Origin: Nitzschia sp. DOCU1
Taxonomy: Eukaryota > Bacillariophyta > Bacillariophyceae > Bacillariales > Bacillariaceae
Reading direction: 5' to 3'
Assembly (NCBI GenBank): GCA_951394045.1
Contig: OX595991.1
Span: forward strand, 3,348,001-3,412,000
DNA length: 64,000 bases
The translations under genes were made by a program, and so were the position numbers. This document shows positions 20,110-61,985 of the stretch, piece by piece. Position 1 is the first letter of the stretch, and each line of letters begins with the position of its first letter. A model generated the notes under the pieces. The model searched no databases, had not been told where the DNA came from, and saw nothing but the letters and a program-made list of their open reading frames with translations.

Positions 20110-20117
20110 TGTTCTTC
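20110..20117. repeat. 8-bp target-site duplication, left (TGTTCTTC)
   Basis: Directly precedes the first base of the left terminal inverted repeat; the same eight bases directly follow the array at 34354-34361. Confidence 0.9.
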
Positions 20118-21701: not shown

Positions 21702-21707
21702 TTCTTC

Positions 21708-23291
21708 GGCAACCCCGCGGTCACGTAGGTAGCATCTGATAGACATTTGACGAAAGATGTCCATTATTTTGAAAAAGAAGGGCTATTTCATCCTTTTTGG
21801 CCCTTTTCAACACGAATCGACCGGAAGATTCTGATAGACACACCAACTTTCTGATAGACACCCAATAGACAACTGTAAAAAAGCATTTCAAAACGAAATT
21901 CCAAATTCAATAAATTAACATTTTGAAAGTTGGCAAATCCAAATTGGTGGGAGGACCTGCCGCCGACGCATGCCCGCCGCCCCCTCCGAGCACAGATTAC
22001 CGGCATCAACATAGCAAACCAATGACGCCGTTGTTATTATTTTCCCTTGACGACACTTTGAGTACATTGTTGCATTCGTTGACCTATGAGTCCCATGAAA
22101 TAGTGTGGCGGGGCGGCGACTTCGCAGGGGCACCGATTCGAAGTTGATTATTGCGTTCGTTGTATCCTGTCAAAAGAACAAAACTAGCTATGAGTTCAAC
22201 AAAACAGTGGTGGGTGGCGGTGACTTTGTACAGGTAGCAACGAATATTGAAGTTTATTGTAGTGTGGTTCTCGTTCAGCAGCAGCGTAGCTTTGTCAAAG
22301 AAGTCACACTGATTCGAAGTTGATTGTCGCATTCGTTGTATCCTCTCAAAGAACAAATGACTAACGAGTTCAATGAAACAGTGGCAGCACGGTGGCGACT
22401 TCCTAGAGATAGCCACGAATAATGAAGTTCATTGTAGCGTAATTGTAGTGGCGGTGGCAGCTTGTAGCCGAATTCACAGGGATTCAAAGTTGATTGTGGC
22501 GTTAGTTGACAGGGAAACAATGACCCCCGAACAAAATGATCGACAAGATGAAGGAAACAATAGCAGCAAACGGTGGTGGCTTTTTAGAGGTGGCAGCGAC
22601 AAATGATGAAGTGTATTGTAGTGTAGTGGTGGCGGTGGCAGCTTGTAGGCAAATCAACAGCGATTCAACGTTGATTGTCGCATTCATGAGCAAGGAAAGA
22701 AAACGACTGACCAGTTGAAAGTAGCGATGGCGATGGCAGCTTCGTTTTGGGAGCACATTGGCAGCAAAGGCCACAACAGGCGATTTGTAAAGGTGCTGGG
22801 TGGTGAGCGGATTGTCAGGTTTACATGACGATGTTAGTGAAATGCATGAATCAAAATACCTTGGTCCGCGATGGAATGCACTTACCTTGGTAATATTGAA
22901 GTAGTAATTGAATAATAACTACAAATTGAATAATCATGCTGCTGCAACCACTGTATATAGCGAGTCGAGGGGTTTATACTCATAAAGTGGTAGGAGTGCA
23001 GCAGCAGTACTCGAGGATTACTCGCAAATGAAAGTTTGAAAGTGAATGAATGGATTTTTGTGTTGCGCCATTGTCGCCGCTCGTCCAATTCGACTTCGTT
23101 GTTGGCGGGTGGTGGGCTGGCGGGCGCGACGCGCAAGCCAGCCTATGATTGTTCGCGGGCGGTAAATGACACTCCTTGATAACGACCGCCACATCAATTA
23201 TCGCCTTCAAAATGTTCGTCCAATTCCTTTTTCCTTTTTCCTTCCTTTTTCTTTATAAAACTTTAGCTACCTACGTGAGCGGGGGTAAGCC
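21708..23291. mobile_element. Family A copy 2
   Basis: 1,584 bp. It carries two changes that mark it: attattttg near 21766 and gttggcaaatcc near 21929, where the other copies have gttcgcaaatcc. Confidence 0.9.
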
Positions 23292-23297
23292 TTCTTC

Positions 23298-24881
23298 GGC
23301 AACCCCGCGGTCACGTAGGTAGCATCTGATAGACATTTGACGAAAGATGTCCATTATTATGAAAAAGAAGGGCTATTTCATCCTTTTTGGCCCTTTTCAA
23401 CACGAATCGACCGGAAGATTCTGATAGACACACCAACTTTCTGATAGACACCCAATAGACAACTGTAAAAAAGCATTTCAAAACGAAATTCCAAATTCAA
23501 TAAATTAACATTTTGAAAGTTCGCAAATCCAAATTGGTGGGAGGACCTGCCGCCGACGCATGCCCGCCGCCCCCTCCGAGCACAGATTACCGGCATCAAC
23601 ATAGCAAACCAATGACGCCGTTGTTATTATTTTCCCTTGACGACACTTTGAGTACATTGTTGCATTCGTTGACCTATGAGTCCCATGAAATAGTGTGGCG
23701 GGGCGGCGACTTCGCAGGGGCACCGATTCGAAGTTGATTATTGCGTTCGTTGTATCCTGTCAAAAGAACAAAACTAGCTATGAGTTCAACAAAACAGTGG
23801 TGGGTGGCGGTGACTTTGTACAGGTAGCAACGAATATTGAAGTTTATTGTAGTGTGGTTCTCGTTCAGCAGCAGCGTAGCTTTGTCAAAGAAGTCACACT
23901 GATTCGAAGTTGATTGTCGCATTCGTTGTATCCTCTCAAAGAACAAATGACTAACGAGTTCAATGAAACAGTGGCAGCACGGTGGCGACTTCCTAGAGAT
24001 AGCCACGAATAATGAAGTTCATTGTAGCGTAATTGTAGTGGCGGTGGCAGCTTGTAGCCGAATTCACAGGGATTCAAAGTTGATTGTGGCGTTAGTTGAC
24101 AGGGAAACAATGACCCCCGAACAAAATGATCGACAAGATGAAGGAAACAATAGCAGCAAACGGTGGTGGCTTTTTAGAGGTGGCAGCGACAAATGATGAA
24201 GTGTATTGTAGTGTAGTGGTGGCGGTGGCAGCTTGTAGGCAAATCAACAGCGATTCAACGTTGATTGTCGCATTCATGAGCAAGGAAAGAAAACGACTGA
24301 CCAGTTGAAAGTAGCGATGGCGATGGCAGCTTCGTTTTGGGAGCACATTGGCAGCAAAGGCCACAACAGGCGATTTGTAAAGGTGCTGGGTGGTGAGCGG
24401 ATTGTCAGGTTTACATGACGATGTTAGTGAAATGCATGAATCAAAATACCTTGGTCCGCGATGGAATGCACTTACCTTGGTAATATTGAAGTAGTAATTG
24501 AATAATAACTACAAATTGAATAATCATGCTGCTGCAACCACTGTATATAGCGAGTCGAGGGGTTTATACTCATAAAGTGGTAGGAGTGCAGCAGCAGTAC
24601 TCGAGGATTACTCGCAAATGAAAGTTTGAAAGTGAATGAATGGATTTTTGTGTTGCGCCATTGTCGCCGCTCGTCCAATTCGACTTCGTTGTTGGCGGGT
24701 GGTGGGCTGGCGGGCGCGACGCGCAAGCCAGCCTATGATTGTTCGCGGGCGGTAAATGACACTCCTTGATAACGACCGCCACATCAATTATCGCCTTCAA
24801 AATGTTCGTCCAATTCCTTTTTCCTTTTTCCTTCCTTTTTCTTTATAAAACTTTAGCTACCTACGTGAGCGGGGGTAAGCC
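23298..24881. mobile_element. Family A copy 3
   Basis: 1,584 bp, reading like copy 1 at the marker positions. Confidence 0.9.
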
Positions 24882-24887
24882 TTCTTC

Positions 24888-26403
24888 GGCAACCCCGCGG
24901 TCACGTAGGTAGCATCTGATAACACGAATCGACCGGAAGATTCTGATAGACACACCAACTTTCTGATAGACACCCAATAGACAACTGTAAAAAAGCATTT
25001 CAAAACGAAATTCCAAATTCAATAAATTAACATTTTGAAAGTTCGCAAATCCAAATTGGTGGGAGGACCTGCCGCCGACGCATGCCCGCCGCCCCCTCCG
25101 AGCACAGATTACCGGCATCAACATAGCAAACCAATGACGCCGTTGTTATTATTTTCCCTTGACGACACTTTGAGTACATTGTTGCATTCGTTGACCTATG
25201 AGTCCCATGAAATAGTGTGGCGGGGCGGCGACTTCGCAGGGGCACCGATTCGAAGTTGATTATTGCGTTCGTTGTATCCTGTCAAAAGAACAAAACTAGC
25301 TATGAGTTCAACAAAACAGTGGTGGGTGGCGGTGACTTTGTACAGGTAGCAACGAATATTGAAGTTTATTGTAGTGTGGTTCTCGTTCAGCAGCAGCGTA
25401 GCTTTGTCAAAGAAGTCACACTGATTCGAAGTTGATTGTCGCATTCGTTGTATCCTCTCAAAGAACAAATGACTAACGAGTTCAATGAAACAGTGGCAGC
25501 ACGGTGGCGACTTCCTAGAGATAGCCACGAATAATGAAGTTCATTGTAGCGTAATTGTAGTGGCGGTGGCAGCTTGTAGCCGAATTCACAGGGATTCAAA
25601 GTTGATTGTGGCGTTAGTTGACAGGGAAACAATGACCCCCGAACAAAATGATCGACAAGATGAAGGAAACAATAGCAGCAAACGGTGGTGGCTTTTTAGA
25701 GGTGGCAGCGACAAATGATGAAGTGTATTGTAGTGTAGTGGTGGCGGTGGCAGCTTGTAGGCAAATCAACAGCGATTCAACGTTGATTGTCGCATTCATG
25801 AGCAAGGAAAGAAAACGACTGACCAGTTGAAAGTAGCGATGGCGATGGCAGCTTCGTTTTGGGAGCACATTGGCAGCAAAGGCCACAACAGGCGATTTGT
25901 AAAGGTGCTGGGTGGTGAGCGGATTGTCAGGTTTACATGACGATGTTAGTGAAATGCATGAATCAAAATACCTTGGTCCGCGATGGAATGCACTTACCTT
26001 GGTAATATTGAAGTAGTAATTGAATAATAACTACAAATTGAATAATCATGCTGCTGCAACCACTGTATATAGCGAGTCGAGGGGTTTATACTCATAAAGT
26101 GGTAGGAGTGCAGCAGCAGTACTCGAGGATTACTCGCAAATGAAAGTTTGAAAGTGAATGAATGGATTTTTGTGTTGCGCCATTGTCGCCGCTCGTCCAA
26201 TTCGACTTCGTTGTTGGCGGGTGGTGGGCTGGCGGGCGCGACGCGCAAGCCAGCCTATGATTGTTCGCGGGCGGTAAATGACACTCCTTGATAACGACCG
26301 CCACATCAATTATCGCCTTCAAAATGTTCGTCCAATTCCTTTTTCCTTTTTCCTTCCTTTTTCTTTATAAAACTTTAGCTACCTACGTGAGCGGGGGTAA
26401 GCC
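24888..26403. mobile_element. Family A copy 4, 68-bp deletion
   Basis: 1,516 bp. Sequence runs agcatctgata directly into acacgaatcg, removing the 68 bases present in all other copies just inside the left end; one of the three subterminal motifs is affected. The right end is normal. Confidence 0.9.
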
Positions 26404-26409
26404 TTCTTC

Positions 26410-27993
26410 GGCAACCCCGCGGTCACGTAGGTAGCATCTGATAGACATTTGACGAAAGATGTCCATTATTATGAAAAAGAAGGGCTATTTCATCCTTTTT
26501 GGCCCTTTTCAACACGAATCGACCGGAAGATTCTGATAGACACACCAACTTTCTGATAGACACCCAATAGACAACTGTAAAAAAGCATTTCAAAACGAAA
26601 TTCCAAATTCAATAAATTAACATTTTGAAAGTTCGCAAATCCAAATTGGTGGGAGGACCTGCCGCCGACGCATGCCCGCCGCCCCCTCCGAGCACAGATT
26701 ACCGGCATCAACATAGCAAACCAATGACGCCGTTGTTATTATTTTCCCTTGACGACACTTTGAGTACATTGTTGCATTCGTTGACCTATGAGTCCCATGA
26801 AATAGTGTGGCGGGGCGGCGACTTCGCAGGGGCACCGATTCGAAGTTGATTATTGCGTTCGTTGTATCCTGTCAAAAGAACAAAACTAGCTATGAGTTCA
26901 ACAAAACAGTGGTGGGTGGCGGTGACTTTGTACAGGTAGCAACGAATATTGAAGTTTATTGTAGTGTGGTTCTCGTTCAGCAGCAGCGTAGCTTTGTCAA
27001 AGAAGTCACACTGATTCGAAGTTGATTGTCGCATTCGTTGTATCCTCTCAAAGAACAAATGACTAACGAGTTCAATGAAACAGTGGCAGCACGGTGGCGA
27101 CTTCCTAGAGATAGCCACGAATAATGAAGTTCATTGTAGCGTAATTGTAGTGGCGGTGGCAGCTTGTAGCCGAATTCACAGGGATTCAAAGTTGATTGTG
27201 GCGTTAGTTGACAGGGAAACAATGACCCCCGAACAAAATGATCGACAAGATGAAGGAAACAATAGCAGCAAACGGTGGTGGCTTTTTAGAGGTGGCAGCG
27301 ACAAATGATGAAGTGTATTGTAGTGTAGTGGTGGCGGTGGCAGCTTGTAGGCAAATCAACAGCGATTCAACGTTGATTGTCGCATTCATGAGCAAGGAAA
27401 GAAAACGACTGACCAGTTGAAAGTAGCGATGGCGATGGCAGCTTCGTTTTGGGAGCACATTGGCAGCAAAGGCCACAACAGGCGATTTGTAAAGGTGCTG
27501 GGTGGTGAGCGGATTGTCAGGTTTACATGACGATGTTAGTGAAATGCATGAATCAAAATACCTTGGTCCGCGATGGAATGCACTTACCTTGGTAATATTG
27601 AAGTAGTAATTGAATAATAACTACAAATTGAATAATCATGCTGCTGCAACCACTGTATATAGCGAGTCGAGGGGTTTATACTCATAAAGTGGTAGGAGTG
27701 CAGCAGCAGTACTCGAGGATTACTCGCAAATGAAAGTTTGAAAGTGAATGAATGGATTTTTGTGTTGCGCCATTGTCGCCGCTCGTCCAATTCGACTTCG
27801 TTGTTGGCGGGTGGTGGGCTGGCGGGCGCGACGCGCAAGCCAGCCTATGATTGTTCGCGGGCGGTAAATGACACTCCTTGATAACGACCGCCACATCAAT
27901 TATCGCCTTCAAAATGTTCGTCCAATTCCTTTTTCCTTTTTCCTTCCTTTTTCTTTATAAAACTTTAGCTACCTACGTGAGCGGGGGTAAGCC
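26410..27993. mobile_element. Family A copy 5
   Basis: 1,584 bp with the full left end restored, so the deletion in copy 4 was not propagated to its neighbour. Confidence 0.9.
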
Positions 27994-27999
27994 TTCTTC

Positions 28000-29583
28000 G
28001 GCAACCCCGCGGTCACGTAGGTAGCATCTGATAGACATTTGACGAAAGATGTCCATTATTATGAAAAAGAAGGGCTATTTCATCCTTTTTGGCCCTTTTC
28101 AACACGAATCGACCGGAAGATTCTGATAGACACACCAACTTTCTGATAGACACCCAATAGACAACTGTAAAAAAGCATTTCAAAACGAAATTCCAAATTC
28201 AATAAATTAACATTTTGAAAGTTCGCAAATCCAAATTGGTGGGAGGACCTGCCGCCGACGCATGCCCGCCGCCCCCTCCGAGCACAGATTACCGGCATCA
28301 ACATAGCAAACCAATGACGCCGTTGTTATTATTTTCCCTTGACGACACTTTGAGTACATTGTTGCATTCGTTGACCTATGAGTCCCATGAAATAGTGTGG
28401 CGGGGCGGCGACTTCGCAGGGGCACCGATTCGAAGTTGATTATTGCGTTCGTTGTATCCTGTCAAAAGAACAAAACTAGCTATGAGTTCAACAAAACAGT
28501 GGTGGGTGGCGGTGACTTTGTACAGGTAGCAACGAATATTGAAGTTTATTGTAGTGTGGTTCTCGTTCAGCAGCAGCGTAGCTTTGTCAAAGAAGTCACA
28601 CTGATTCGAAGTTGATTGTCGCATTCGTTGTATCCTCTCAAAGAACAAATGACTAACGAGTTCAATGAAACAGTGGCAGCACGGTGGCGACTTCCTAGAG
28701 ATAGCCACGAATAATGAAGTTCATTGTAGCGTAATTGTAGTGGCGGTGGCAGCTTGTAGCCGAATTCACAGGGATTCAAAGTTGATTGTGGCGTTAGTTG
28801 ACAGGGAAACAATGACCCCCGAACAAAATGATCGACAAGATGAAGGAAACAATAGCAGCAAACGGTGGTGGCTTTTTAGAGGTGGCAGCGACAAATGATG
28901 AAGTGTATTGTAGTGTAGTGGTGGCGGTGGCAGCTTGTAGGCAAATCAACAGCGATTCAACGTTGATTGTCGCATTCATGAGCAAGGAAAGAAAACGACT
29001 GACCAGTTGAAAGTAGCGATGGCGATGGCAGCTTCGTTTTGGGAGCACATTGGCAGCAAAGGCCACAACAGGCGATTTGTAAAGGTGCTGGGTGGTGAGC
29101 GGATTGTCAGGTTTACATGACGATGTTAGTGAAATGCATGAATCAAAATACCTTGGTCCGCGATGGAATGCACTTACCTTGGTAATATTGAAGTAGTAAT
29201 TGAATAATAACTACAAATTGAATAATCATGCTGCTGCAACCACTGTATATAGCGAGTCGAGGGGTTTATACTCATAAAGTGGTAGGAGTGCAGCAGCAGT
29301 ACTCGAGGATTACTCGCAAATGAAAGTTTGAAAGTGAATGAATGGATTTTTGTGTTGCGCCATTGTCGCCGCTCGTCCAATTCGACTTCGTTGTTGGCGG
29401 GTGGTGGGCTGGCGGGCGCGACGCGCAAGCCAGCCTATGATTGTTCGCGGGCGGTAAATGACACTCCTTGATAACGACCGCCACATCAATTATCGCCTTC
29501 AAAATGTTCGTCCAATTCCTTTTTCCTTTTTCCTTCCTTTTTCTTTATAAAACTTTAGCTACCTACGTGAGCGGGGGTAAGCC
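28000..29583. mobile_element. Family A copy 6
   Basis: 1,584 bp; no marker differences from copy 5 were noticed. Confidence 0.9.
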
Positions 29584-29589
29584 TTCTTC

Positions 29590-31173
29590 GGCAACCCCGC
29601 GGTCACGTAGGTAGCATCTGATAGACATTTGACGAAAGATGTCCATTATTATGAAAAAGAAGGGCTATTTCATCCTTTTTGGCCCTTTTCAACACGAATC
29701 GACCGGAAGATTCTGATAGACACACCAACTTTCTGATAGACACCCAATAGACAACTGTAAAAAAGCATTTCAAAACGAAATTCCAAATTCAATAAATTAA
29801 CATTTTGAAAGTTCGCAAATCCAAATTGGTGGGAGGACCTGCCGCCGACGCATGCCCGCCGCCCCCTCCGAGCACAGATTACCGGCATCAACATAGCAAA
29901 CCAATGACGCCGTTGTTATTATTTTCCCTTGACGACACTTTGAGTACATTGTTGCATTCGTTGACCTATGAGTCCCATGAAATAGTGTGGCGGGGCGGCG
30001 ACTTCGCAGGGGCACCGATTCGAAGTTGATTATTGCGTTCGTTGTATCCTGTCAAAAGAACAAAACTAGCTATGAGTTCAACAAAACAGTGGTGGGTGGC
30101 GGTGACTTTGTACAGGTAGCAACGAATATTGAAGTTTATTGTAGTGTGGTTCTCGTTCAGCAGCAGCGTAGCTTTGTCAAAGAAGTCACACTGATTCGAA
30201 GTTGATTGTCGCATTCGTTGTATCCTCTCAAAGAACAAATGACTAACGAGTTCAATGAAACAGTGGCAGCACGGTGGCGACTTCCTAGAGATAGCCACGA
30301 ATAATGAAGTTCATTGTAGCGTAATTGTAGTGGCGGTGGCAGCTTGTAGCCGAATTCACAGGGATTCAAAGTTGATTGTGGCGTTAGTTGACAGGGAAAC
30401 AATGACCCCCGAACAAAATGATCGACAAGATGAAGGAAACAATAGCAGCAAACGGTGGTGGCTTTTTAGAGGTGGCAGCGACAAATGATGAAGTGTATTG
30501 TAGTGTAGTGGTGGCGGTGGCAGCTTGTAGGCAAATCAACAGCGATTCAACGTTGATTGTCGCATTCATGAGCAAGGAAAGAAAACGACTGACCAGTTGA
30601 AAGTAGCGATGGCGATGGCAGCTTCGTTTTGGGAGCACATTGGCAGCAAAGGCCACAACAGGCGATTTGTAAAGGTGCTGGGTGGTGAGCGGATTGTCAG
30701 GTTTACATGACGATGTTAGTGAAATGCATGAATCAAAATACCTTGGTCCGCGATGGAATGCACTTACCTTGGTAATATTGAAGTAGTAATTGAATAATAA
30801 CTACAAATTGAATAATCATGCTGCTGCAACCACTGTATATAGCGAGTCGAGGGGTTTATACTCATAAAGTGGTAGGAGTGCAGCAGCAGTACTCGAGGAT
30901 TACTCGCAAATGAAAGTTTGAAAGTGAATGAATGGATTTTTGTGTTGCGCCATTGTCGCCGCTCGTCCAATTCGACTTCGTTGTTGGCGGGTGGTGGGCT
31001 GGCGGGCGCGACGCGCAAGCCAGCCTATGATTGTTCGCGGGCGGTAAATGACACTCCTTGATAACGACCGCCACATCAATTATCGCCTTCAAAATGTTCG
31101 TCCAATTCCTTTTTCCTTTTTCCTTCCTTTTTCTTTATAAAACTTTAGCTACCTACGTGAGCGGGGGTAAGCC
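29590..31173. mobile_element. Family A copy 7
   Basis: 1,584 bp; no marker differences from copy 5 were noticed. Confidence 0.9.
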
Positions 31174-31179
31174 TTCTTC

Positions 31180-32763
31180 GGCAACCCCGCGGTCACGTAG
31201 GTAGCATCTGATAGACATTTGACGAAAGATGTCCATTATTATGAAAAAGAAGGGCTATTTCATCCTTTTTGGCCCTTTTCAACACGAATCGACCGGAAGA
31301 TTCTGATAGACACACCAACTTTCTGATAGACACCCAATAGACAACTGTAAAAAAGCATTTCAAAACGAAATTCCAAATTCAATAAATTAACATTTTGAAA
31401 GTTCGCAAATCCAAATTGGTGGGAGGACCTGCCGCCGACGCATGCCCGCCGCCCCCTCCGAGCACAGATTACCGGCATCAACATAGCAAACCAATGACGC
31501 CGTTGTTATTATTTTCCCTTGACGACACTTTGAGTACATTGTTGCATTCGTTGACCTATGAGTCCCATGAAATAGTGTGGCGGGGCGGCGACTTCGCAGG
31601 GGCACCGATTCGAAGTTGATTATTGCGTTCGTTGTATCCTGTCAAAAGAACAAAACTAGCTATGAGTTCAACAAAACAGTGGTGGGTGGCGGTGACTTTG
31701 TACAGGTAGCAACGAATATTGAAGTTTATTGTAGTGTGGTTCTCGTTCAGCAGCAGCGTAGCTTTGTCAAAGAAGTCACACTGATTCGAAGTTGATTGTC
31801 GCATTCGTTGTATCCTCTCAAAGAACAAATGACTAACGAGTTCAATGAAACAGTGGCAGCACGGTGGCGACTTCCTAGAGATAGCCACGAATAATGAAGT
31901 TCATTGTAGCGTAATTGTAGTGGCGGTGGCAGCTTGTAGCCGAATTCACAGGGATTCAAAGTTGATTGTGGCGTTAGTTGACAGGGAAACAATGACCCCC
32001 GAACAAAATGATCGACAAGATGAAGGAAACAATAGCAGCAAACGGTGGTGGCTTTTTAGAGGTGGCAGCGACAAATGATGAAGTGTATTGTAGTGTAGTG
32101 GTGGCGGTGGCAGCTTGTAGGCAAATCAACAGCGATTCAACGTTGATTGTCGCATTCATGAGCAAGGAAAGAAAACGACTGACCAGTTGAAAGTAGCGAT
32201 GGCGATGGCAGCTTCGTTTTGGGAGCACATTGGCAGCAAAGGCCACAACAGGCGATTTGTAAAGGTGCTGGGTGGTGAGCGGATTGTCAGGTTTACATGA
32301 CGATGTTAGTGAAATGCATGAATCAAAATACCTTGGTCCGCGATGGAATGCACTTACCTTGGTAATATTGAAGTAGTAATTGAATAATAACTACAAATTG
32401 AATAATCATGCTGCTGCAACCACTGTATATAGCGAGTCGAGGGGTTTATACTCATAAAGTGGTAGGAGTGCAGCAGCAGTACTCGAGGATTACTCGCAAA
32501 TGAAAGTTTGAAAGTGAATGAATGGATTTTTGTGTTGCGCCATTGTCGCCGCTCGTCCAATTCGACTTCGTTGTTGGCGGGTGGTGGGCTGGCGGGCGCG
32601 ACGCGCAAGCCAGCCTATGATTGTTCGCGGGCGGTAAATGACACTCCTTGATAACGACCGCCACATCAATTATCGCCTTCAAAATGTTCGTCCAATTCCT
32701 TTTTCCTTTTTCCTTCCTTTTTCTTTATAAAACTTTAGCTACCTACGTGAGCGGGGGTAAGCC
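31180..32763. mobile_element. Family A copy 8
   Basis: 1,584 bp; no marker differences from copy 5 were noticed. Confidence 0.9.
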
Positions 32764-32769
32764 TTCTTC

Positions 32770-34353
32770 GGCAACCCCGCGGTCACGTAGGTAGCATCTG
32801 ATAGACATTTGACGAAAGATGTCCATTATTTTGAAAAAGAAGGGCTATTTCATCCTTTTTGGCCCTTTTCAACACGAATCGACCGGAAGATTCTGATAGA
32901 CACACCAACTTTCTGATAGACACCCAATAGACAACTGTAAAAAAGCATTTCAAAACGAAATTCCAAATTCAATAAATTAACATTTTGAAAGTTCGCAAAT
33001 CCAAATTGGTGGGAGGACCTGCCGCCGACGCATGCCCGCCGCCCCCTCCGAGCACAGATTACCGGCATCAACATAGCAAACCAATGACGCCGTTGTTATT
33101 ATTTTCCCTTGACGACACTTTGAGTACATTGTTGCATTCGTTGACCTATGAGTCCCATGAAATAGTGTGGCGGGGCGGCGACTTCGCAGGGGCACCGATT
33201 CGAAGTTGATTATTGCGTTCGTTGTATCCTGTCAAAAGAACAAAACTAGCTATGAGTTCAACAAAACAGTGGTGGGTGGCGGTGACTTTGTACAGGTAGC
33301 AACGAATATTGAAGTTTATTGTAGTGTGGTTCTCGTTCAGCAGCAGCGTAGCTTTGTCAAAGAAGTCACACTGATTCGAAGTTGATTGTCGCATTCGTTG
33401 TATCCTCTCAAAGAACAAATGACTAACGAGTTCAATGAAACAGTGGCAGCACGGTGGCGACTTCCTAGAGATAGCCACGAATAATGAAGTTCATTGTAGC
33501 GTAATTGTAGTGGCGGTGGCAGCTTGTAGCCGAATTCACAGGGATTCAAAGTTGATTGTGGCGTTAGTTGACAGGGAAACAATGACCCCCGAACAAAATG
33601 ATCGACAAGATGAAGGAAACAATAGCAGCAAACGGTGGTGGCTTTTTAGAGGTGGCAGCGACAAATGATGAAGTGTATTGTAGTGTAGTGGTGGCGGTGG
33701 CAGCTTGTAGGCAAATCAACAGCGATTCAACGTTGATTGTCGCATTCATGAGCAAGGAAAGAAAACGACTGACCAGTTGAAAGTAGCGATGGCGATGGCA
33801 GCTTCGTTTTGGGAGCACATTGGCAGCAAAGGCCACAACAGGCGATTTGTAAAGGTGCTGGGTGGTGAGCGGATTGTCAGGTTTACATGACGATGTTAGT
33901 GAAATGCATGAATCAAAATACCTTGGTCCGCGATGGAATGCACTTACCTTGGTAATATTGAAGTAGTAATTGAATAATAACTACAAATTGAATAATCATG
34001 CTGCTGCAACCACTGTATATAGCGAGTCGAGGGGTTTATACTCATAAAGTGGTAGGAGTGCAGCAGCAGTACTCGAGGATTACTCGCAAATGAAAGTTTG
34101 AAAGTGAATGAATGGATTTTTGTGTTGCGCCATTGTCGCCGCTCGTCCAATTCGACTTCGTTGTTGGCGGGTGGTGGGCTGGCGGGCGCGACGCGCAAGC
34201 CAGCCTATGATTGTTCGCGGGCGGTAAATGACACTCCTTGATAACGACCGCCACATCAATTATCGCCTTCAAAATGTTCGTCCAATTCCTTTTTCCTTTT
34301 TCCTTCCTTTTTCTTTATAAAACTTTAGCTACCTACGTGAGCGGGGGTAAGCC
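32770..34353. mobile_element. Family A copy 9
   Basis: 1,584 bp. It shares the attattttg variant (near 32830) with copy 2 but not copy 2's second change. Its right end lies 146 bp from the carrier start codon. Confidence 0.9.
34316..34322 (+). promoter_or_regulatory. TATA-like box in the right end of the last transposon copy
   Basis: TATAAAA follows a long pyrimidine tract and points out of the element, 178 bp before the carrier ATG. Every family A copy has it, and family B has tataaaa at the same place. Whether it drives transcription is unproved. Confidence 0.3.
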
Positions 34354-34361
34354 TGTTCTTC
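34354..34361. repeat. 8-bp target-site duplication, right (TGTTCTTC)
   Basis: Perfect match to 20110-20117; follows the terminal GCC of copy 9 immediately. Confidence 0.9.
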
Positions 34362-34499
34362 TTCCGTTCCGTCGCAAGATCTTTTTGGCTTTGTGTGTGT
34401 TGACACCCTCTCCGCCTTCGATCTTGCCGACACGATGGCCACTCGAATAGATAGATTGCATTCTATTTCGTACATCGTAACAAATAAACAACGATAGTC

Positions 34500-42592: not shown

Positions 42593-42742
42593 ATGATTTC
42601 GCGGTGATTTCGCGGTGATTTCGCGGTGATTTCGCGGTGATTTCGCGGTGATTTCGCGGTGATTTCGCGGTGATTTCGCGGTGATTTCGCGGTGATTTCG
42701 CGATGATTTCGCGATGATTTCGCGATGATTTCACCATGATCT
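42593..42742. repeat. 11-bp minisatellite (TGATTTCGCGG)n, first locus
   Basis: About 13 to 14 head-to-tail copies; the last few change to TGATTTCGCGA. Translated, it makes a repetitive NHREITAKSPR-type peptide, which I treat as an artefact. Confidence 0.95.
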
Positions 42743-45983: not shown

Positions 45984-46756
45984 GCGGTGAAATCCTTCAT
46001 CGTACCAGGTATTTGTACAAGCTAGTACGTGGTGTACAATATCATGTCAAGGTTGTGTCAGCCGTGTCAAAGTTCTGCCATGTTCTCGCGGTGATTTCGC
46101 GATGATTTCGCGGTGATTTCGCGATGATTTCGCGATGATTTCGCGATGATTTCGCGATGATTTCGCGGTGATTTCGCGGTGATTTTGCGATGATTCTTCC
46201 AAGGCTTATGATTTAACGCTTTTGATGCTGATAGGGCAATTGGAACTGGGGGAAGTTACCAAATGGGGGCTTCTCTTGAATCAACTTGGAATATATTATT
46301 CAACGCCAAATAATTAACATGTTTCCATGTGTATGTGTATCGCCAAAAGAGCCGTTCATCTTAATTACTCCGACGCATGTCCGTCCTTTGTCAGCTTGAG
46401 TAACGGATGGGCCAGATGATTTTGAAATCCGGTGGGGCACGAGGCGAAACTATTGCCCTTTCGGAGCGGACAAGAATCAGACAAGTCTTGTATAGTTGGG
46501 TCGTCGCTGAACGACATGCAGGAGATAAGCGCCGGCCTAATTTTCGAAAATTCGAGCCTGGCGGTCACCAGAAGAGAAGTGCCGATGACGTTGCCAATCC
46601 GGCGATGGGAACTTTTCCCAAAGGCGACTGCTTCTACCGGTAGCTCTATTGGAGAAGAGATTTTTTCTTATCATCGTTGTTGCATGTGTCAGTTTCGTTT
46701 TATTACCATCCATCTTTCTACAATCGTTCTACTTACCTGGTACAGAACTTAGTACT
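45984..46756. other. Intergenic with minisatellite
   Basis: Should hold the missing first exon or promoter of the UbiB-like gene, but the 11-bp minisatellite begins about 100 bp upstream of its visible coding sequence and no first exon was found. Confidence 0.4.
46084..46200. repeat. 11-bp minisatellite, second locus
   Basis: About ten copies of the same TGATTTCGCGR unit found at 42593-42742, in the same orientation, 3.4 kb away. G/A variants at the last base alternate along the array. Confidence 0.95.
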
Positions 46757-47791: not shown

Positions 47792-47862
47792 TAGACTACT
47801 TTGACGAGAAAGAGTTGTAAATCGCATTTAATGAATAGAGCATTCGCTGATGACATCAACGA

Positions 47863-51825: not shown

Positions 51826-52068
51826 TTTGATTGCGAAGTTTGCAAACGTAAATGCATTTTGTCTCAAGTATTCGATTTGCAAAAGAAGAGAGAGGGGGAA
51901 CGGTTGTTCATGGCATGAGACGACGGTTGGTATGAAATTTGAGGTGCGCAATCTTTTTCTTGGAGGTGCGCGTTGGCGCCACCGACGGAGGGAACGTTGG
52001 CTGGCTACACAAGCACGTGGCTGTAGAAAAAAGGGGACGACGTGGATGGAGGTCCCTCTTCCATAGAG
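51826..52068. other. Spacer upstream of the cysteine-repeat gene
   Basis: Divides the minus-strand cysteine-repeat gene from the HECT relic. Promoter likely, but no motif can be assigned. Confidence 0.4.
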
Positions 52069-53098: not shown

Positions 53099-53967
53099 TG
53101 TTCAATTGGTTTTCGACTTTTTAACTAGTAAATTGCGATGAGCAGTTAGGCGACAACAAGAGCAACAAGAAAGGAACAATGGCACACTACAAGTTGGAAT
53201 AATTCATTTACAATTTTGAATCGAGTCTACATCATGTGAAGGCTTCGCAGAGAAACCGCATGAAAAGACTGGCAACTCCTTTACTGTGGGAATCTTCGAC
53301 AGCACCGGCGGTCCCAACTGGTACAATGTGGATGTAGTTCCTGCAAGCTAGTATTACTAGATAGCTCAGCTGCTACTAACAGAATTGGGGCTCCATGAAT
53401 TAGCTTGTTCTAGTAATTATTTTATGAGTTTTCTGTCTTAGAATGTGAAATTGAGTTTGTTTCTCCCAGTCTTCGACGTTGTTCAATAGTTCGTAGTGCG
53501 CTCGGTTCGGTCGTACTGGAGTCATGGAACTGGACTATTGGTGAATCGTATTATTCCAACCTCCCTTCTGGAAAAATCCAAAACATCCAATGTTGTATCA
53601 TCCAAGATGAATCTTCCCCATGGTGCACGCCCTCTATGTAATATTCCGTTGAATCCTGGATCGTCATTCAATAAAATATTATTCCATCAATGTTGTATGA
53701 TCCAAGGCGCATGTTGCCTATGATGCAGGCCCTCTATGTAATATTTCCGTTGAGCCGTTGAATCCTTGGATCTTCGTTCAATTAAACATTTCCCGCCAAT
53801 TTGTTCACCAAAATTTGGCGAACGGGCTATGACTAAGGAAATTTCATCGGCAGCAGCGATAGTTGATGAAATATTCACGTGGTGCACGAAAACCATATTC
53901 GCACGTTAACATCTATGCTCATTGATTCGATTGCTGTTGTTACTTCAGTCTACTTTACGCGAAAGAG
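53099..53967. other. Intergenic, upstream of the cysteine-rich gene
   Basis: Holds a tandem duplication (53588-53790) and AT-rich sequence; short frames only. Confidence 0.5.
53588..53790. repeat. 101-bp tandem duplication
   Basis: aatgttgtatcatccaag at 53588 and aatgttgtatgatccaag at 53689; each is followed by ccctctatgtaatatt and ccgttgaatcc. Copies differ by small indels. Confidence 0.8.
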
Positions 53968-55464
53968 ATGATGCAAATGAAGGGTATCTTCCTTTTGCTC
54001 TTGTTGGGGGTTGCCTCGTCCGAGTCCATGCTTGAGCAGCAAGAGAAGCAGCATGACCTGAATCAAGCGGAGATGGTGTATTTGCAGGATGAGGATGTCG
54101 AAGACGAGAATCCTTCGCCGTCCAAACGACTCCGCGAGCTTGTTCGAAGCCGCCCTCGAGTCCTAGAAGGTCAAGCTCCGAAGTCGACGCTTTATTCTGA
54201 CGGAGTGGTGGATGGCACGGCTGAGCGATATATCCGCTCCTCTGCTACCAGCTCAAATGGAATCATCATGGGGGGCGGGCAACTAGATCACAATCGAGCA
54301 GGCAGCGGCACGTTTACATCGAGTGCTACAAAGTCCTCCAAGACCCCTTGCCCGACATCCAAGGCCAGCAAAACGCCCAAAACTGGTCGTCGGTTCCTCC
54401 AAGAACCTGCTCCCAAGCAGAAGAATGCCGACAAGGTCAAGGCAGCGGAGTCTGCTGCCGACGATAGTGCAGGCACGGCCCAGTACTCCAGGACAAGCGC
54501 CCGCGAGGGAGATGGGATGGAATCCCGATCGGATTATCTTTCTTCTGCTGGTGCCAAGAGCAGCAAAGGAGCAAAGGCCAGCAAAAGTTGCGGCGGCCTT
54601 GGGGGTGAGGATGATTCTGTTAAGCCCTCGTCCGAGCCCTCGTTGAATCCCTCGTCCAAGCCCTCGTTGATGCCCTCGGAGATGCCATCCTTGGAACCTT
54701 CCAACATGCCATCCAGCAGATGTGATCTCCGCTTGGATGTCTTCAAGGGAAATGAAAACGCCTTGGTGGCGCAATGCAACGCTGAACAGTTATCCGGCGC
54801 CGGTCTTGGCAAGGATTGTAGCATCGGCGGAGACGACGCTTGTTGCACTTGTTGCTGCGTTGAGAATGGAGCATCGCAAGTATGTGCCGCCCCAAGTGCA
54901 TGCAAGGGAGGAACCTGCGAACCAAACGGCAACACGTGTCCATCAACAACGACGGCAGGAGTGGATGCGGGGTGTTGCAGCGCATATTGCGGCTCTGACG
55001 GCAAATGCTGCAGCGACGGCTTTTGTACAGGTACTGCGGATACTTCCTGTTGCAGTGGACTCTCCTGCCAGAAGCAAGGTGGCTCTGACAACTTTAAATG
55101 TCAGAACTGTGTTGCAGACGACGATCCTTGTGCAACTACAGGTAATCCGGCTCCCTGTTGCAGTGCGACACACAGCTGCAAGTCGGATGGTAGTGGGGGC
55201 ACTAAATGTCTCCCCGCCTCCTCCACCTGCAGTAGTATAAAAGGCACAGTTTGTAGTGACAATGCTGGGTGCTGCTCTCCATTAACCTGCAACTCCGGCA
55301 GTTGCTGCATTCAAAAAAACGCCGCCTGTACCAATGGGTCGGATGGTAGATGTTGCAGTGGAAACTCCTGCCAGCAGGTTGGTGCCTCTGCCAACTTTAA
55401 ATGTGACACCGTCAGAAGACTCGAGGAGAACGGCCAGGACCTCCCGGCCTTCATGCAGTGGTAG
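53968..55464 (+). CDS. Secreted cysteine-rich protein with PS-repeat stalk
   Basis: 498 residues from the ATG at 53968. A signal peptide (MKGIFLLLLLGVASSE) is followed by an acidic and Lys/Ser-rich region of about 190 residues, then a PSxxPS repeat (KPSSEPSLNPSSKPSLMPSE) near residues 213-240, then a cysteine-rich domain of about 220 residues with many CC and CxxC pairs (GDDACCTCCCVENG, DTSCCSGLSCQKQGG, GRCCSGNSCQQVG). At least four short CC-S-G-x-S-C repeats are present, which resemble knottin-like disulfide modules. It ends DLPAFMQW. PS-repeat stalks are common in diatom cell-surface proteins, so an extracellular or wall location is likely. The last 300 codons are duplicated downstream. Confidence 0.85.
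   Translation: MMQMKGIFLLLLLGVASSESMLEQQEKQHDLNQAEMVYLQDEDVEDENPSPSKRLRELVRSRPRVLEGQAPKSTLYSDGVVDGTAERYIRSSATSSNGIIMGGGQLDHNRAGSGTFTSSATKSSKTPCPTSKASKTPKTGRRFLQEPAPKQKNADKVKAAESAADDSAGTAQYSRTSAREGDGMESRSDYLSSAGAKSSKGAKASKSCGGLGGEDDSVKPSSEPSLNPSSKPSLMPSEMPSLEPSNMPSSRCDLRLDVFKGNENALVAQCNAEQLSGAGLGKDCSIGGDDACCTCCCVENGASQVCAAPSACKGGTCEPNGNTCPSTTTAGVDAGCCSAYCGSDGKCCSDGFCTGTADTSCCSGLSCQKQGGSDNFKCQNCVADDDPCATTGNPAPCCSATHSCKSDGSGGTKCLPASSTCSSIKGTVCSDNAGCCSPLTCNSGSCCIQKNAACTNGSDGRCCSGNSCQQVGASANFKCDTVRRLEENGQDLPAFMQW
54523..55425 (+). repeat. Source (or sister) copy of a 903-bp duplication within the cysteine-rich gene
   Basis: Begins sharply at tcccgatcgg and matches 63098-64000 base for base as far as I compared. 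It spans the PS-repeat stalk and nearly all of the cysteine domain. Confidence 0.9.
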
Positions 55465-55785
55465 TCATTGCAGTTGCAGTTGCAATTGCAATTGCGAGTA
55501 GATATGGAAAGAAAGATGACGCTTGTGAAAATGATAGTAATAGTCAAAGTAAAGTAAAAGAGCATGCATGTTGATGTTGTTGTTGTTGTTGCAGCAGCAT
55601 GAGAAAGAAGGATGGTTCATTTCAATTGTCGCTGTGGCTCGCAAGAGAAACAAACCAAAGCTTTCCGCGCCGCTATCATACCAGGTACGTCCATCTGTCC
55701 TTCGTCCAACCACGCCTCCGATTAGAATTTGTCCGAACAGCCTATCATTTTTGAGGGACACCTGTTGGCCACGTATGATAGGCAG
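55465..55785. other. Short intergenic with GTT/GCA runs
   Basis: Contains cagttgcagttgcaattgca and ttgttgttgttgttgc runs; no gene. Confidence 0.5.
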
Positions 55786-57005
55786 ATGTCAAAAACGTCC
55801 GCACCTCTGGTGACACTGGAAGAAACGTGTACCATTCTGGGAGGGGGCGCAACCAAACAAAATGTCGTCGGGGCGTGCATTCGCATCGGTCGCAAGGTCA
55901 TCCACGCAGTTGATGCTGGCAGCCGATCGTGCCGTCGCCGTCGTCATTATCGATGGGAGAGAGCAGATATCATAGATGAACGTTGGTGCCCATGGGCTGC
56001 TCCCATTAATGTGACTTTCTACATCAGGATGATTCCCTCACCACTCTTCAACTTTGGCAACCAGGCACCTGCTGAATCATCCGAGGGGGCGCTGCCGTCT
56101 GCGGAACACTCGTCGCTGCTACTGACATCGTTGAACTTCCTGCCGGTCGCCCCTCTGCACCAGCCACCATCGCTACTCGATGCCACCGGCAAAACCAGTT
56201 CCTCCAATGGCACCGAGCCGACAGATGCAGACAATGACTCTGTGGGGATCCCCGAAGGCGTCAAGGAGGGAGAGGTCGACGCACTGCTCGCGAATGAATT
56301 GAACGCCATGTCCCTGGAAGAACGAGAACGAACTTACGAGGAAATTCACGGCGTCGATCAAATTCCAGACGAAACGCCCGCCTTTCTTCATCAGAAATTC
56401 TTGCAATTTGACGAAGCATTAAGGAGAATACCAAACAATCTCAAAGCCGCATATATGCAGGCACTGCAACAGGATTCGGCGTATATACAAAACCCGAAAT
56501 TCCGACTCATGATCCTCAGAAGTACCCTCTTTGATGTGGACGCCGCTGCCACACGCTTGGTAGATTTTCTCCAGGGAAAACTGGACTTGTTTGGACCTCA
56601 AACGTTGACAAGGTCGGTATATTTGACCGATCTAGACAAGGATGACATGGCATATCTAAAGTCGGGCGCTTATCAGCATTTGCCGTCACGCGATTCCGTG
56701 GGACGAGCAGCGATTGTGGACTTTCACCTGGTGGTGGAACATGCCTATAAACATCCAAAAAATCTGGTACGAGATTTACAAATTGGTCGACTGTCGCATG
56801 TTGTTATCCAGTGCTGGCCTGTTTCTTAATCTGTTTCTTTGTTCTTGTACAGCTCCGAACGCTGGCCTTTCTCCAACTCGCCGCAGCCGATCGGCTTCGT
56901 AGTGGGGAAGCACGGGGAAGCTTCCGGCCGCCGTCTTTTGCGAGAGATAAGTTGCTAGTAGTACCATTGGGTAACAACAAGGGACTACATTTTCCAGCGT
57001 GGTGA
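55786..57005 (+). CDS. Diatom-expanded family protein (EEIHGVDQIPDE motif), two exons
   Basis: Exon 1 is 55786-56766 and exon 2 is 56853-57005, separated by an 86-bp intron (GTACGAG...CTTGTACAG) in phase 0; 377 residues from the ATG at 55786, or 296 from the ATG at 56029, which avoids an unusual Arg-rich first part. The core, from about residue 188, has ALLANELNAMSLEERERTYE and EEIHGVDQIPDETP, then YMQALQQDSAYIQNPKFRLM and KLDLFGPQTLTRSVYLTDLD, and YKHPKNL at the exon junction. I recall these blocks from a large family of uncharacterised diatom proteins, perhaps with a CRAL-TRIO-like fold. After NLL the usual family sequence stops and a short unrelated tail follows, so this member is C-terminally truncated. 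Confidence 0.7.
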
Positions 57006-57059
57006 TGCCCCGTCATCATCGTTATCAAGAAATCAGGACAAGGCAAGAAAAGGGGGGAG

Positions 57060-57400
57060 AATAACTATTGCAGCGAAGGTGCGGTTACTTCCTGTTGCGG
57101 TGGGTTTTGCTGCGCATATCTCCAATGCTACGTTGGAGTTGGCGGAGCTTGTACTGTGCTAGGTACTGACGGTTGCAGTGGATTTTGTGGCGCCAATAAC
57201 AAATGAGCATGGGCCAATCGTTCATATACCAATGAAGGTCTGGATGATTCCTGTTGTAGTGGATATTGCAAAAAGTCTGACAAGGGTATAAAAACCTCTT
57301 TGAAAGGTGGTGCCACCCCGGGGGTGGCGGCAGAAGACTCGAGAATGAAAGCGAGGACCTTCCGGGCTTTCTGAAGTGGTATTTATTGCGATTGTTTGTA
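57060..57400 (+). pseudogene. Decayed third copy of the cysteine-rich gene's 3' end
   Basis: Reads SCCGGFCCAYLQCYVG, GTDGCSGFCGANNK then a stop, DDSCCSGYCKKSDKG, and a final piece matching the end of the intact gene (gaagactcgag...gaccttccgggctttc against gaagactcgag...gacctcccggccttc at 55415). Stops and frame changes show that it is a relic. No N-terminal half is seen. Confidence 0.7.
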
Positions 57401-57700
57401 GTGAAGGACATATGAAGATTGTGAAAATGTAACTCCAAATCTCTCGTTGAAAAAACCAAGACACCGGTCGTACGAAATAAGAATCAGAGTCGATGAAAAA
57501 TAGTAACAGCAATAGTGCATTTCCAATTTTGAAGCGGGTCAGCGTCGCATCAAGTGTCCAAAGCGAGTCCCCATGTGGAGACTAGCAACTCCTTTGCTGA
57601 CGAAGTCATCCGCTTGGGCCACAACTTCGTCTTGACGGTGCAATGACCGGAGCTGGCCGGGTTCTTTCTATCTGTATTTTGGAAACGAGTTGATGAATCA
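57401..57700. other. Intergenic, nothing recognised
   Basis: 300 bases with no convincing frame or repeat. Confidence 0.4.
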
Positions 57701-58459
57701 ATGACTAGACCAAAAAGGGACGAGTGGATAAAGCCAGAAAGGCCTTGTAGCCCTCACCTGGAAGACCGAAATGGTTTTACATGCCAGAAAGGCTTCCCCT
57801 CCGACATCACGCTGAAAAATTCACTTTTCGTCCAATTGAGAGAGGGGGCAGCATCAAACCGCTTTGGGATACACGGACCGCGCCATGTTGGTAATATCAA
57901 GCCCCTTAGAGAAAATCCCCCATTCAATGGCCAACAAGAAGTGTTGTCGATTTCTCTGCTCTCCTGCCACCGAAATGAGTTTGGCACCGTAATGCATGTC
58001 ATCAATTTCCTTTACAGGGCAATGAAACAGTTCTTCCGCTCGGAGACACCCTTGAAGATGCCACCAGAAGGGCTTGAGGGCCCCGATTGTCGAGATGCAC
58101 ACATTGTCATCTCTGTGATATCGCATCAGGATCTCAGGGGAAATGTGGTGCAAACATGGGTATTAGCATGCCGCCGTTTGGCACGGCATTCAATATTGAT
58201 AAATGGGGTGATGAAGTCAAAGGTCTCTAGTAGCCCCCATGCAGATGGCTTCGGTGCTAATTCTTGCTGTCGTCGGTGCAACTATAACAGCCAGGACTAT
58301 TTGTCAAGCCTAGTCGTGTATGTAAAAGGGAGCCGACGTGATGCCATGATCCCAGGAACCAGCAACCTGCACACGAGCCTGATCCGCTCACGCCATCTCA
58401 ACAACCTTTGGACAGGCCATCCAACACACCAAACAGTGGTAATCAAGGTGGATGCGTAG
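57701..58459 (+). CDS. Hypothetical protein, doubtful
   Basis: A 252-residue frame from an ATG at 57701. Its length is more than chance would usually give, and it has mixed composition (PPEGLEGPDCRDAHIVISVI, DLRGNVVQTWVLACRRLARH), but no domain, signal or repeat supports it. The opposite strand is also open in pieces. A further plus-strand fragment at 58675-58821 (ending MMQSFADMLAL) may be a separate relic. Confidence 0.3.
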   Translation: MTRPKRDEWIKPERPCSPHLEDRNGFTCQKGFPSDITLKNSLFVQLREGAASNRFGIHGPRHVGNIKPLRENPPFNGQQEVLSISLLSCHRNEFGTVMHVINFLYRAMKQFFRSETPLKMPPEGLEGPDCRDAHIVISVISHQDLRGNVVQTWVLACRRLARHSILINGVMKSKVSSSPHADGFGANSCCRRCNYNSQDYLSSLVVYVKGSRRDAMIPGTSNLHTSLIRSRHLNNLWTGHPTHQTVVIKVDA

Positions 58460-58933
58460 CCAACATTAAAATCCAACAGCGATATGGACAACGGCGGCGA
58501 CGGAAACAAAAACAACCAAGGTTATGCATATGCATCATCCGAAGGTTACGATCATCCTGCTTGCTGCAGTTGTTGCCGCACGAAGAATTAGAAAGGGCCC
58601 AAGTAACGCAAGCCAAAGGCCGACTGCGGTTTTCGAAGAAGGCTCGATGAGGCCGACGGGGAAGTGCTGGGCTTTCTGGAGTGCTCGTTGTCATTGCGGA
58701 TGATGGTACTGATCTTACCACTCCAACTATTACCAGGTATGCCGCCGCCCGAAATAAGAAACAAGGTGTAGGAGGCAAACTAATAATGATGCAATCCTTC
58801 GCCGATATGCTGGCTCTCTGAGGCATAGTCAGCATATCGATGCTTCATTTTCATTGCGTCCATTTTCTGTCGCATTGGCCGGGACCCGCCGTCCGCACCT
58901 CACCCGACAAGGGAACCACAATTGGCGAAGCGG

Positions 58934-58941
58934 AATAAAAC
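58934..58941. repeat. 8-bp target-site duplication, left (AATAAAAC)
   Basis: Directly before the first family B element; the same eight bases follow the second copy at 61978-61985. Confidence 0.9.
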
Positions 58942-60456
58942 GGTGAGTGTCGAACTACGTAGGTAGCTCTTTGATAGTGTATGACAGAAATGCCCCGTTT
59001 TCGTCCAAAATCGGTGCTTTTTGATTGAATTCGCGTCCTCAACGTGTCCTACTTTGATAGTGCATTTATGGACGTTTTGATAGTACATTTAACACTACGA
59101 CACAAAAGATTAAAATTTGACTTTTGATTTACCAATTTGAAGCTTCTTTTTGTGTATTCTTGATATCTTGGGAGCGCGCCTGCTCCCTCCCATGCCAGAC
59201 GAAGCTTGCGATAACAACTAAAGCTCACAATAGTAGCACCAATAGTAGTTCCTTCTCGGTTCTTGGTTAACCAGCCTCGTTGCTCGATAACTCGCAATCA
59301 TGATAGCAAGGAAGAACGACGACGATTGACGACAAGCGACACCAAAAAAGTGACAAGTCGCATGACCAGACTTTCTAGTTCAAGTGCACTAGCAACGTCT
59401 ACTATAGTGCAATCCCTATTTCAAATCAGCAGAATCATCCTTCTATCATTCCCATGAATCATGATTCGAAGTTGATTGTTGCATTCCTTGTATGATTCGT
59501 TGATTGTTGCATTCGTTGTATCGTGTCAAAAGAACAAAACTAGGAGTTCAACGAAACAGTGGCGGGGCAGCAACTTCGTAGAGGTAGCAGCAAATAATGA
59601 AGTGTATTGTAGTGTAGTAGTTGTAGTGGCCATGGCAGCTTGTAGACGAATTCACAGCGATCCAAAGTTGATTGTAGCGTTCGGCCCACGAACAAAATGA
59701 TCGATGAGATGAAGGAAACAATAGCGGCGCGACGACGGCTTCGTAGAGGTAGCCCTGAATAATAAAGTGTATTGTAGTGTAGTAGTGGCGGTGGCAGCTT
59801 GTAGATGAATCCACAGCGATCCAAAGTTGATTGTAGCGTTCATTGGCAGGGAAACAAAACGACTGACGAGTTGAAAGCGGCGGCGGCGACGGCAGCTTCG
59901 TTTTGGGAGTAGATTGGCACCAAAGGCCACAACAGGCGAGTTGTAGAGATGCTGGGTGGTGAGCAGGTTGTCAGGTTTACATGACAATGTTAGTGAAATG
60001 CATGAATCAAAATACTTTGGTCCGCCATGGAATGCACTTACCTCGGTAATATTGTAGTAGTAATTGAATAATAACTAGCAATCGAATAATACTGCTGATG
60101 GAACGACTGTATAGCGCCAATCAAGGAGTTTATACACATGCGGTGGTAGGAGTAGAGCTGCAGTACTCGAGAATTACTCGCAAATGAAAGTTTGACAGTG
60201 AAAGAATGGATTTTTGTGTTGCGCCATTGTCGCCGCTCGTCCAATTCAACGACAAATTTGGACCAATTCGACTTAACGGCGAGCGGCGGGCGCGCCGCGC
60301 AAGCCGGCAAAAGTTTGTTCCCAGCGGTAAATCTCAATCCTTGATACAACCGAAACAGCGATTATTGCTTTCAAAATGTTCTTCGAACTTTTTCTCTTCT
60401 TTTTCCTTTCTTTCCCTTTATAAAAATTTCGCTACCTACGTAGCTGGACATAGGCC
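58942..60456. mobile_element. Family B non-autonomous transposon, copy A
   Basis: 1,515 bp. It begins GGTGAGTGTCGAACTACG and ends CTGGACATAGGCC; the 26-bp ends share an inner TACGTAGGTAGC with each other and ACGTAGGTAGC with family A. Subterminal TTGATAGTRY motifs lie at 58971, 59054 and 59077 only at the left end. The middle has internal repeats beginning GATCCAAAGTTGATTGTAGC, cognate to those of family A. No transposase frame is seen. Confidence 0.9.
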
Positions 60457-60462
60457 TAAAAC

Positions 60463-61977: not shown

Positions 61978-61985
61978 AATAAAAC
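61978..61985. repeat. 8-bp target-site duplication, right (AATAAAAC)
   Basis: Perfect match to 58934-58941, immediately after the terminal GGCC of copy B. Confidence 0.9.

Follow-up and report, generated by a model that had tools for sequence, protein, structure and literature searches.

What reaction joins neighbouring copies of a transposon through only six of the eight bases that it duplicates on insertion? The question is raised by a 64,000-nucleotide stretch of the diatom Nitzschia sp. DOCU1 (assembly GCA_951394045.1, contig OX595991.1, positions 3,348,001 to 3,412,000; this whole stretch is referred to as the window), which carries two tandem arrays, A and B, of units about 1.5 kb long. 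Each array is bounded by an 8-bp target duplication, and its copies are separated by the last six bases of that duplication. The same joint recurs throughout the genome, and we conclude that it is probably made by an asymmetric 6-nt copy-out reaction of a Dada-type transposase, with the right end of the element as donor. The arrays are laid out in the window as follows.

20110..20117, no strand: array A, left target duplication TGTTCTTC, 8 bp, as read in the sequence
20118..34353, plus strand: array A, nine head-to-tail units with 26-bp imperfect terminal inverted repeats
21702..21707, no strand: array A joint 1, TTCTTC
23292..23297, no strand: array A joint 2, TTCTTC
24882..24887, no strand: array A joint 3, TTCTTC
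26404..26409, no strand: array A joint 4, TTCTTC
27994..27999, no strand: array A joint 5, TTCTTC
29584..29589, no strand: array A joint 6, TTCTTC
31174..31179, no strand: array A joint 7, TTCTTC
32764..32769, no strand: array A joint 8, TTCTTC
34354..34361, no strand: array A, right target duplication TGTTCTTC, 8 bp, as read in the sequence
58934..58941, no strand: array B, left target duplication AATAAAAC, 8 bp, as read in the sequence
58942..61977, plus strand: array B, two identical 1515-bp units
60457..60462, no strand: array B joint, TAAAAC
61978..61985, no strand: array B, right target duplication AATAAAAC, 8 bp, as read in the sequence

All eight joints among the nine copies of array A are TTCTTC within an outer TGTTCTTC, and the single joint between the two copies of array B is TAAAAC within an outer AATAAAAC; both spacers are those given by a first-pass annotation of the window. 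Array A units are 1584 bp long except for unit 4 (1516 bp), and the nine aligned copies differ in one substitution column and 68 gap columns. The annotation took the arrays for unrelated insertions. This part does not hold, since A and B units share 81% identity across 977 aligned columns and have end motifs in common, which makes them related families. The motif ACGTAGGTAGC, contained in the 26-bp terminal repeats, has 23 matches in the window with one mismatch allowed, against 0.29 expected. A search of plasmids for relatives of an array A unit found none.

Joints were sought in the 52-Mb, 63-contig genome that holds the window. This genome has 63 matches to the light-harvesting family PF00504, and the one compared further came closest to fucoxanthin-chlorophyll proteins, in keeping with a diatom. 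The first pattern search was blind to orientation and able to catch head-to-head and tail-to-tail arrangements and spacers of about -9 to +21 bp. It returned 45 joints, every one of which (45/45) runs from a right end to a left end, with spacers of 6 bp in 41, 5 bp in one, 7 bp in one and 10 bp in two at a single locus. The second search, fixed in orientation and aimed at a third family with a different right end, added 29 joints, 28 of 6 bp and one of 7 bp. Together the 74 spacers comprise 69 of six bases, one of five, two of seven and two of ten (the one locus), and none (0/74) has the full eight. The lone 5-bp spacer corresponds to the last five bases and sits between two 6-bp spacers within one array.

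The target duplication itself is 8 bp long. Fourteen of the 16 monomers with both ends readable match at 8/8 positions and two at 7/8; among the arrays with both flanks read (n = 22; 18 plus four), 19 match at 8/8, two at 7/8 (C10, C14b) and one at 5/8 (C11). For perfect duplication pairs, eight is the only length among 4 to 11 that matches fully, and the duplicated sequences vary between sites. The monomer count leaves out elements that are truncated or for which no right end was found (L003, L004, L087, L089, L090) and ends fetched alone (L070, L073, L074, L076-L080). It also leaves out the 13.7-kb pair L071/L072, which says little because its two ends had been put together by virtue of their duplication (8/8). 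L078 was re-read as the truncated L090, L082 as L089, and L075, L081 and L083 as left ends within L091, L088 and L087, respectively. For monomer C5a, whose terminal repeat has an extra base, the right end was moved by one base accordingly.

At 21 of 25 independent loci, the spacer consists of the six bases of the local 8-bp duplication that lie next to the left end, and at none of these local loci (0/21) is it the six bases next to the right end. The rule is seen in four terminal types, including the trimer of a putatively autonomous 5.5-kb element. The first set of 18 loci, in which C1a and C1b were counted once because their flanks are the same and C2 from the third family was included, gave 14 local left-end-proximal spacers and four unrelated ones (C4b ATCTTT, C15a ATTCTC, C8 TATTACC and C14b GAAATTATCT). 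For the second set of seven third-family arrays, the rule was predicted before the flanks were read, and all seven agree. Six of these carry the joint bases beside the left end and C12c was scored by its right-hand duplication only; the right end was absent from its predicted place in C6c and C15c, and the left end likewise in C12c. A C1 stub (L007), in which the first copy is only a piece of right end, was kept out of the locus count, and its joint is among the 74; the joint reads GAATCA, as do the six bases on the far side of the stub, in keeping with the rule. This right-end stub, near reverse-strand position 1486 with GAATCA on both sides, precedes a truncated copy, a case of a joint outliving its near-vanished first copy. 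Another candidate dimer, C14:1903149/1904655, was rejected because the second of its copies turned out to be a monomer flanked by an 8-bp duplication of its own.

Copies within an array are usually close to identical. Sixteen of the 18 arrays compared have 0-2 substitution columns, C1b has seven and C16 has 38 (C1a and C1b are counted apart here, the C15 trimer was compared by BLAST of two units and C2 by two of three, and the C10 dimer units were left out). Gap columns number 559 in C8, which has one shortened copy, 68 in A, 48 in C16, 4 in C17 and 2 each in C1b and C2. Between loci, the best local alignments range from 99.7% down to about 79% identity. A local spacer inside an outer duplication shows that the extra copies arose at the site; judging by the foreign spacers, multimers may also be mobile themselves or recombine with circles from outside. 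Separately, a single variant in C14a (L034) alternates T, G, T, G across four copies, as if a dimer had been duplicated pairwise. Two arrays 27 kb apart (L024 and L025) have the same near flanks and 3 and 6 copies, respectively, as if the locus had been duplicated and the array lengths had then changed; one more right end, at 5525 in L024, is followed by this right flank as well.

The two ends of the units are unlike, as exemplified by unit 1 of each array.

20145..20267 (starts 20145, 20240, 20260), plus strand: array A unit 1, left-end subterminal repeats TCTGATAG, absent from the right end
21664..21670, plus strand: array A unit 1, TATAAAA, which starts 38 nt from the right terminus and points across the joint into the next copy
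58970..59083 (starts 58970, 59053, 59076), plus strand: array B unit 1, left-end subterminal repeats TTTGATAG
60419..60425, plus strand: array B unit 1, TATAAAA, which starts 38 nt from the right terminus

At the left end, 20 of 21 representative units (all but C2) have three short repeats, placed at about 29, 105-125 and 137-147. They were not found in the right 300 bp, where six units have only pyrimidine-rich or single-base runs repeated. All 21 units, from 19 loci, have TATAAAA (14) or CATAAAA (7) starting 38 nt before the right terminus, and this TATA-like box points across the joint to the left end of the next copy. In the two long elements examined, the transposase frame has its first ATG about 313 and 363 bp inside the left end. 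We speculate that the joint sets a putative right-end TATA box upstream of the transposase start of the next copy, like the junction promoters of bacterial elements.

The C15 unit is 5508 bp long and itself occurs in a trimer with local joints, of which the two fully read units are identical. Its open frame of 1558 codons likely encodes a Dada-like DDE transposase with an inserted DEDDy exonuclease. The sole Pfam match is the 3'-5' exonuclease PF01612 (637-750, E 4e-15), and profile comparison of this domain retrieved the WRN and Mut-7 exonucleases. Four related proteins without informative names were found, three of which share the exonuclease; the DEDDy residues D564, E566, D660, Y733 and D737 are invariant in P0001-P0003. 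So are D418, D492, D970-x-x-H973 and E1138, which are also present in P0004. Read against the published description of Dada, the alignment shows a DDE triad with DxxH after the second D and the DEDDy exonuclease between these two motifs. A C-terminal CCHC (C1479, C1482, H1491, C1503), as described for Dada, is invariant in P0001-P0003 and incomplete in P0004, with a spacing slightly off the published one. Before D418, the only invariant cysteines in P0001-P0003 are C211, C221 and C252, and the published CCCC spacing was not seen. The resulting order (D418, D492, DEDDy, DxxH, E1138, CCHC) is the one given for exonuclease-bearing members in the accessible part of the 2013 Dada paper (PMC3706591). 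P0005, the fourth related protein (1479 amino acids, found by profile), has no Pfam exonuclease match. Its alignment covers only 16% of the query, so what the two have in common may be little more than a zinc-knuckle region. A search of viral contigs for relatives of the 5.5-kb protein found none, and a second 5.5-kb element (L043) has a stop within the frame.

The short units share end sequences with the long 5.5-kb elements. The 1.4-1.6-kb units are probably non-autonomous Dada-type elements moved by related 5.5-kb elements. Membership of the hAT, MuDR or Merlin superfamilies was dropped: the 8-bp duplication was its only support, and the Pfam match of the 5.5-kb protein is to the exonuclease only. 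One 6514-bp element (L042, 1357-7870) has these terminal repeats, an intact 8-bp duplication and a polyprotein frame with reverse transcriptase, RNase H and integrase, which we take to be Ty3/gypsy-like from this domain set. It appears to be a retrotransposon nested in, or picked up by, a DNA transposon.

Two reactions would together account for the outer duplications and the joints. An ordinary two-ended insertion duplicates 8 bp of target, as the flanks directly record. In a second, asymmetric reaction, the 3' end of the right terminus would be joined, within the same strand, to a point in the left flank 6 nt beyond the left terminus. If this took place within one copy, the product would be a circle with a 6-bp spacer; if it linked sister copies after replication, the product would be a tandem dimer in place, with the outer 8-bp duplications untouched. 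Longer arrays would grow from the dimer by recombination or repetition, and non-local joints would come from multimers that were transposed whole or that recombined with a circle of other origin. This strand transfer would correspond to copy-out in the IS256-type copy-out/paste-in pathway, and the donor would be the right end. A variant in which the 8-bp target comprises six flank bases and the GG of the left end was rejected, as it would alter the left outer edge, which is intact.

The first-pass annotation had proposed a defined joining mechanism in place of unequal exchange between duplications, and the joint lengths (69 of 74 at 6 bp, none at 8) support it. Its suggestion of circles closed over six flanking bases fits best, with the right end joined to the left flank at 21/21 local loci. 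Elements sharing these ends were searched for and their duplications and spacers tabulated, as it had advised, and the pattern holds genome-wide. Multimers with full 8-bp spacers and monomers with a 6-bp duplication, both of which it had named as counter-evidence, did not appear among the 74 joints and the 16 readable monomers, respectively. Random spacers, also named, occur in part: the spacer is local at 21 of 25 loci but unrelated to the local duplication at four.

Several points weigh against the copy-out reading. The spacer is unrelated to the local duplication at four of 25 loci and at two of these is 7 or 10 bp long; an exact-pattern search of the genome found donor sites for none of the four. 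C11 (left flank ..AAGAATAC, joint GAATAC) was counted as local by its left flank, yet its right flank, AAAAAATC, is no duplication (5/8). The copies of C16 differ at 38 positions, copy 1 looks mosaic and the joint is local, a combination of divergence and local joint that simple sister duplication does not yield. The transposase was identified by motif order against the published Dada description, the link between the 5.5-kb protein and the movement of the short units is their shared end sequences, and the circle or figure-eight intermediates are hypothetical. Finally, ISCth4 and IS256 use either end as donor, whereas only one direction is seen here (PMC7780238).

From about TCGGGACC on, the right flank of C11 (L032) coincides with the edge of a different repeat, of which the genome has six more copies, so the right duplication may simply have been lost. 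The nearest relative of C11, C14b (99.7%), also has GAATAC beside its left end. The idea that C11 has six carried bases atop two target bases is weakened by the repeat edge and is retained as a lead.

End-targeted insertion survives best among the other explanations, and we consider it unlikely. A second element, linear or circular, would enter beside the left end of a resident with a 6-bp stagger, in the manner of IS30. This would give the same DNA product, with the outer 8 bp kept and six bases repeated, and would account for the two copies of C16. IS30 carries out site-specific dimerisation and end-targeting, the latter with only left-right junctions in the accessible account (PMC9333248). 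An outside donor should, however, often differ from the resident, and most array copies are identical or nearly so though loci differ by 0.3% to about 21%. The required 6-bp stagger is seen in 0/16 monomers.

Less probable again is excision followed by repair, in which the gap would be filled from the sister, slippage at the duplication would add a copy and end processing, perhaps by the exonuclease, would remove two bases. Cut-and-paste is the usual assumption for DDE relatives, and a built-in exonuclease could trim ends. Tandem arrays of coral piggyBac-type miniature inverted-repeat transposable elements have been ascribed to replication slippage, in an account accessible in part. Slippage should nevertheless give variable joints, many with the full 8 bp, of which there are none among 74, and the loss falls on the side next to the right end at 21 of 21 local loci.

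A true 6-bp duplication whose first two bases match by target preference, the reading chosen in 2013 for Dada-U1 and Perkinsus families (PMC3706591), is very improbable given that the first two bases are duplicated at differing sites, with 8/8 matches in 14/16 monomers and 19/22 arrays. We give just as little weight to simple unequal crossing-over or an error of assembly: tandem copies are difficult to assemble and their number may be wrong, and unequal exchange probably alters copy number once a dimer exists (as in the alternating T/G variant of C14a), but neither would turn 8-bp duplications into 6-bp joints at 21 separate loci.

The first-pass annotation knew of no described element with this rule. 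The geometry has in fact been published for Dada-U1 (PMC3706591) and for IS256-family elements (PMC7780238), and the comparisons made here hold for the accessible parts of the cited papers. Dada-U1 is apparently flanked by 8 bp, CTGCGAAT; GCGAAT was taken as the duplication, partly because it separates the tandem copies, and 8 bp was not ruled out (PMC3706591). Beside Dada-tA and Dada-tY, six target bases are replaced by another six on one or both sides, and the original flank of Dada-tA was speculated to have been carried along (PMC8869645). Both the Dada-U1 pattern and the six replaced bases would follow from an 8-bp stagger with a 6-bp junction. The 6-7-bp target duplication ascribed to Dada was not found here, where it is 8 bp. 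Since the published Dada outer repeats also look 8 bp long, the 6-7-bp figure may be too low for some members.

The elements described here share with Dada the DDE residues with DxxH, the C-terminal CCHC and a DEDDy domain that follows the second D and precedes DxxH, an arrangement described for the Laccaria and Ectocarpus members; with Dada-U1 they share tandem copies, an outer repeat that looks 8 bp long and a 6-bp joint. They differ in their 26-bp terminal inverted repeats, clear 8-bp duplication and non-autonomous families of about 1.5 kb in long arrays. Dada-U6 and Dada-U1 are described without terminal inverted repeats, and the Dada members with definable termini lie in small RNA genes. 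Insertion in multicopy small RNA genes was not seen here: a scan of the window, which could miss a gene split by the insertion, gave no tRNA and no Rfam match, placing A and B in no detected RNA gene.

Among bacterial elements, ISCth4 makes 8-bp duplications and junctions of 6-8 bp, 6 bp being the most efficient, and IS256 circle junctions measure 5, 6, 7 and 19 bp (PMC7780238). The 8-bp duplication and the spacer of ~6 bp from the recipient-end flank are found here as well. IS256 and ISCth4 form a promoter at the junction, to which the candidate right-end TATA would correspond. Either of their ends acts as donor, whereas 0/21 local joints here derive from the right flank; they are bacterial, and the accessible text does not mention an exonuclease domain. 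IS2 is similar in having unlike ends, of which only the right one serves as donor, and different in its family and its spacer of 1-2 bp (PMC3299598). IS30 belongs to another family, and its tandem dimers may form on replicated copies (PMC9333248). KolobokP is likewise a eukaryotic DDE element with multimers, and its excision has been likened to the circular route of IS3/IS256; the evidence there differs, consisting of one-sided 1-5-bp deletions on excision and of neighbours that share long direct repeats (PMC9587614). A fixed spacer drawn from the duplication is not reported for KolobokP in the accessible part of that paper, and such long terminal direct repeats between neighbours were not found here, where nothing but the spacer separates adjoining full copies. 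The 6-of-8 joint rule is not stated as a mechanism for a eukaryotic element in the accessible parts of the open-licence literature searched. Precedents for the rule exist; what appears to be new is its one-way form in a eukaryotic superfamily.

Other repeats occur in the window. A 903-bp stretch is repeated at 100% identity (54523-55425 and 63098-64000), the second copy touching the window end. Two arrays of 11-bp repeats, TGATTTCGCGG and TCGCGATGATT, at 42594-42732 and 46086-46195, match each other at ~90-97% in pieces.

Most eukaryotic DDE transposons are assumed to cut and paste. We tentatively propose, as a real but far from settled possibility, that the whole Dada superfamily moves by copy-out/paste-in via circles whose junction is 6 bp long, that the right end is the only donor and that a transposase promoter forms at the joint; the 6-7-bp duplications in print and the 'carried' bases would then be traces of such circles. 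The fixed, one-polarity 6-of-8 joint, found at 21 loci and in four terminal types, would represent the genomic footprint of a one-ended, flank-directed strand transfer, which is the first step of the bacterial copy-out route. The rule offers another reading of the Dada duplication length and of the 'carried' bases, and it may account for the way tandem arrays of these elements form on the spot. What an exonuclease does within a transposase could then be tested as well.

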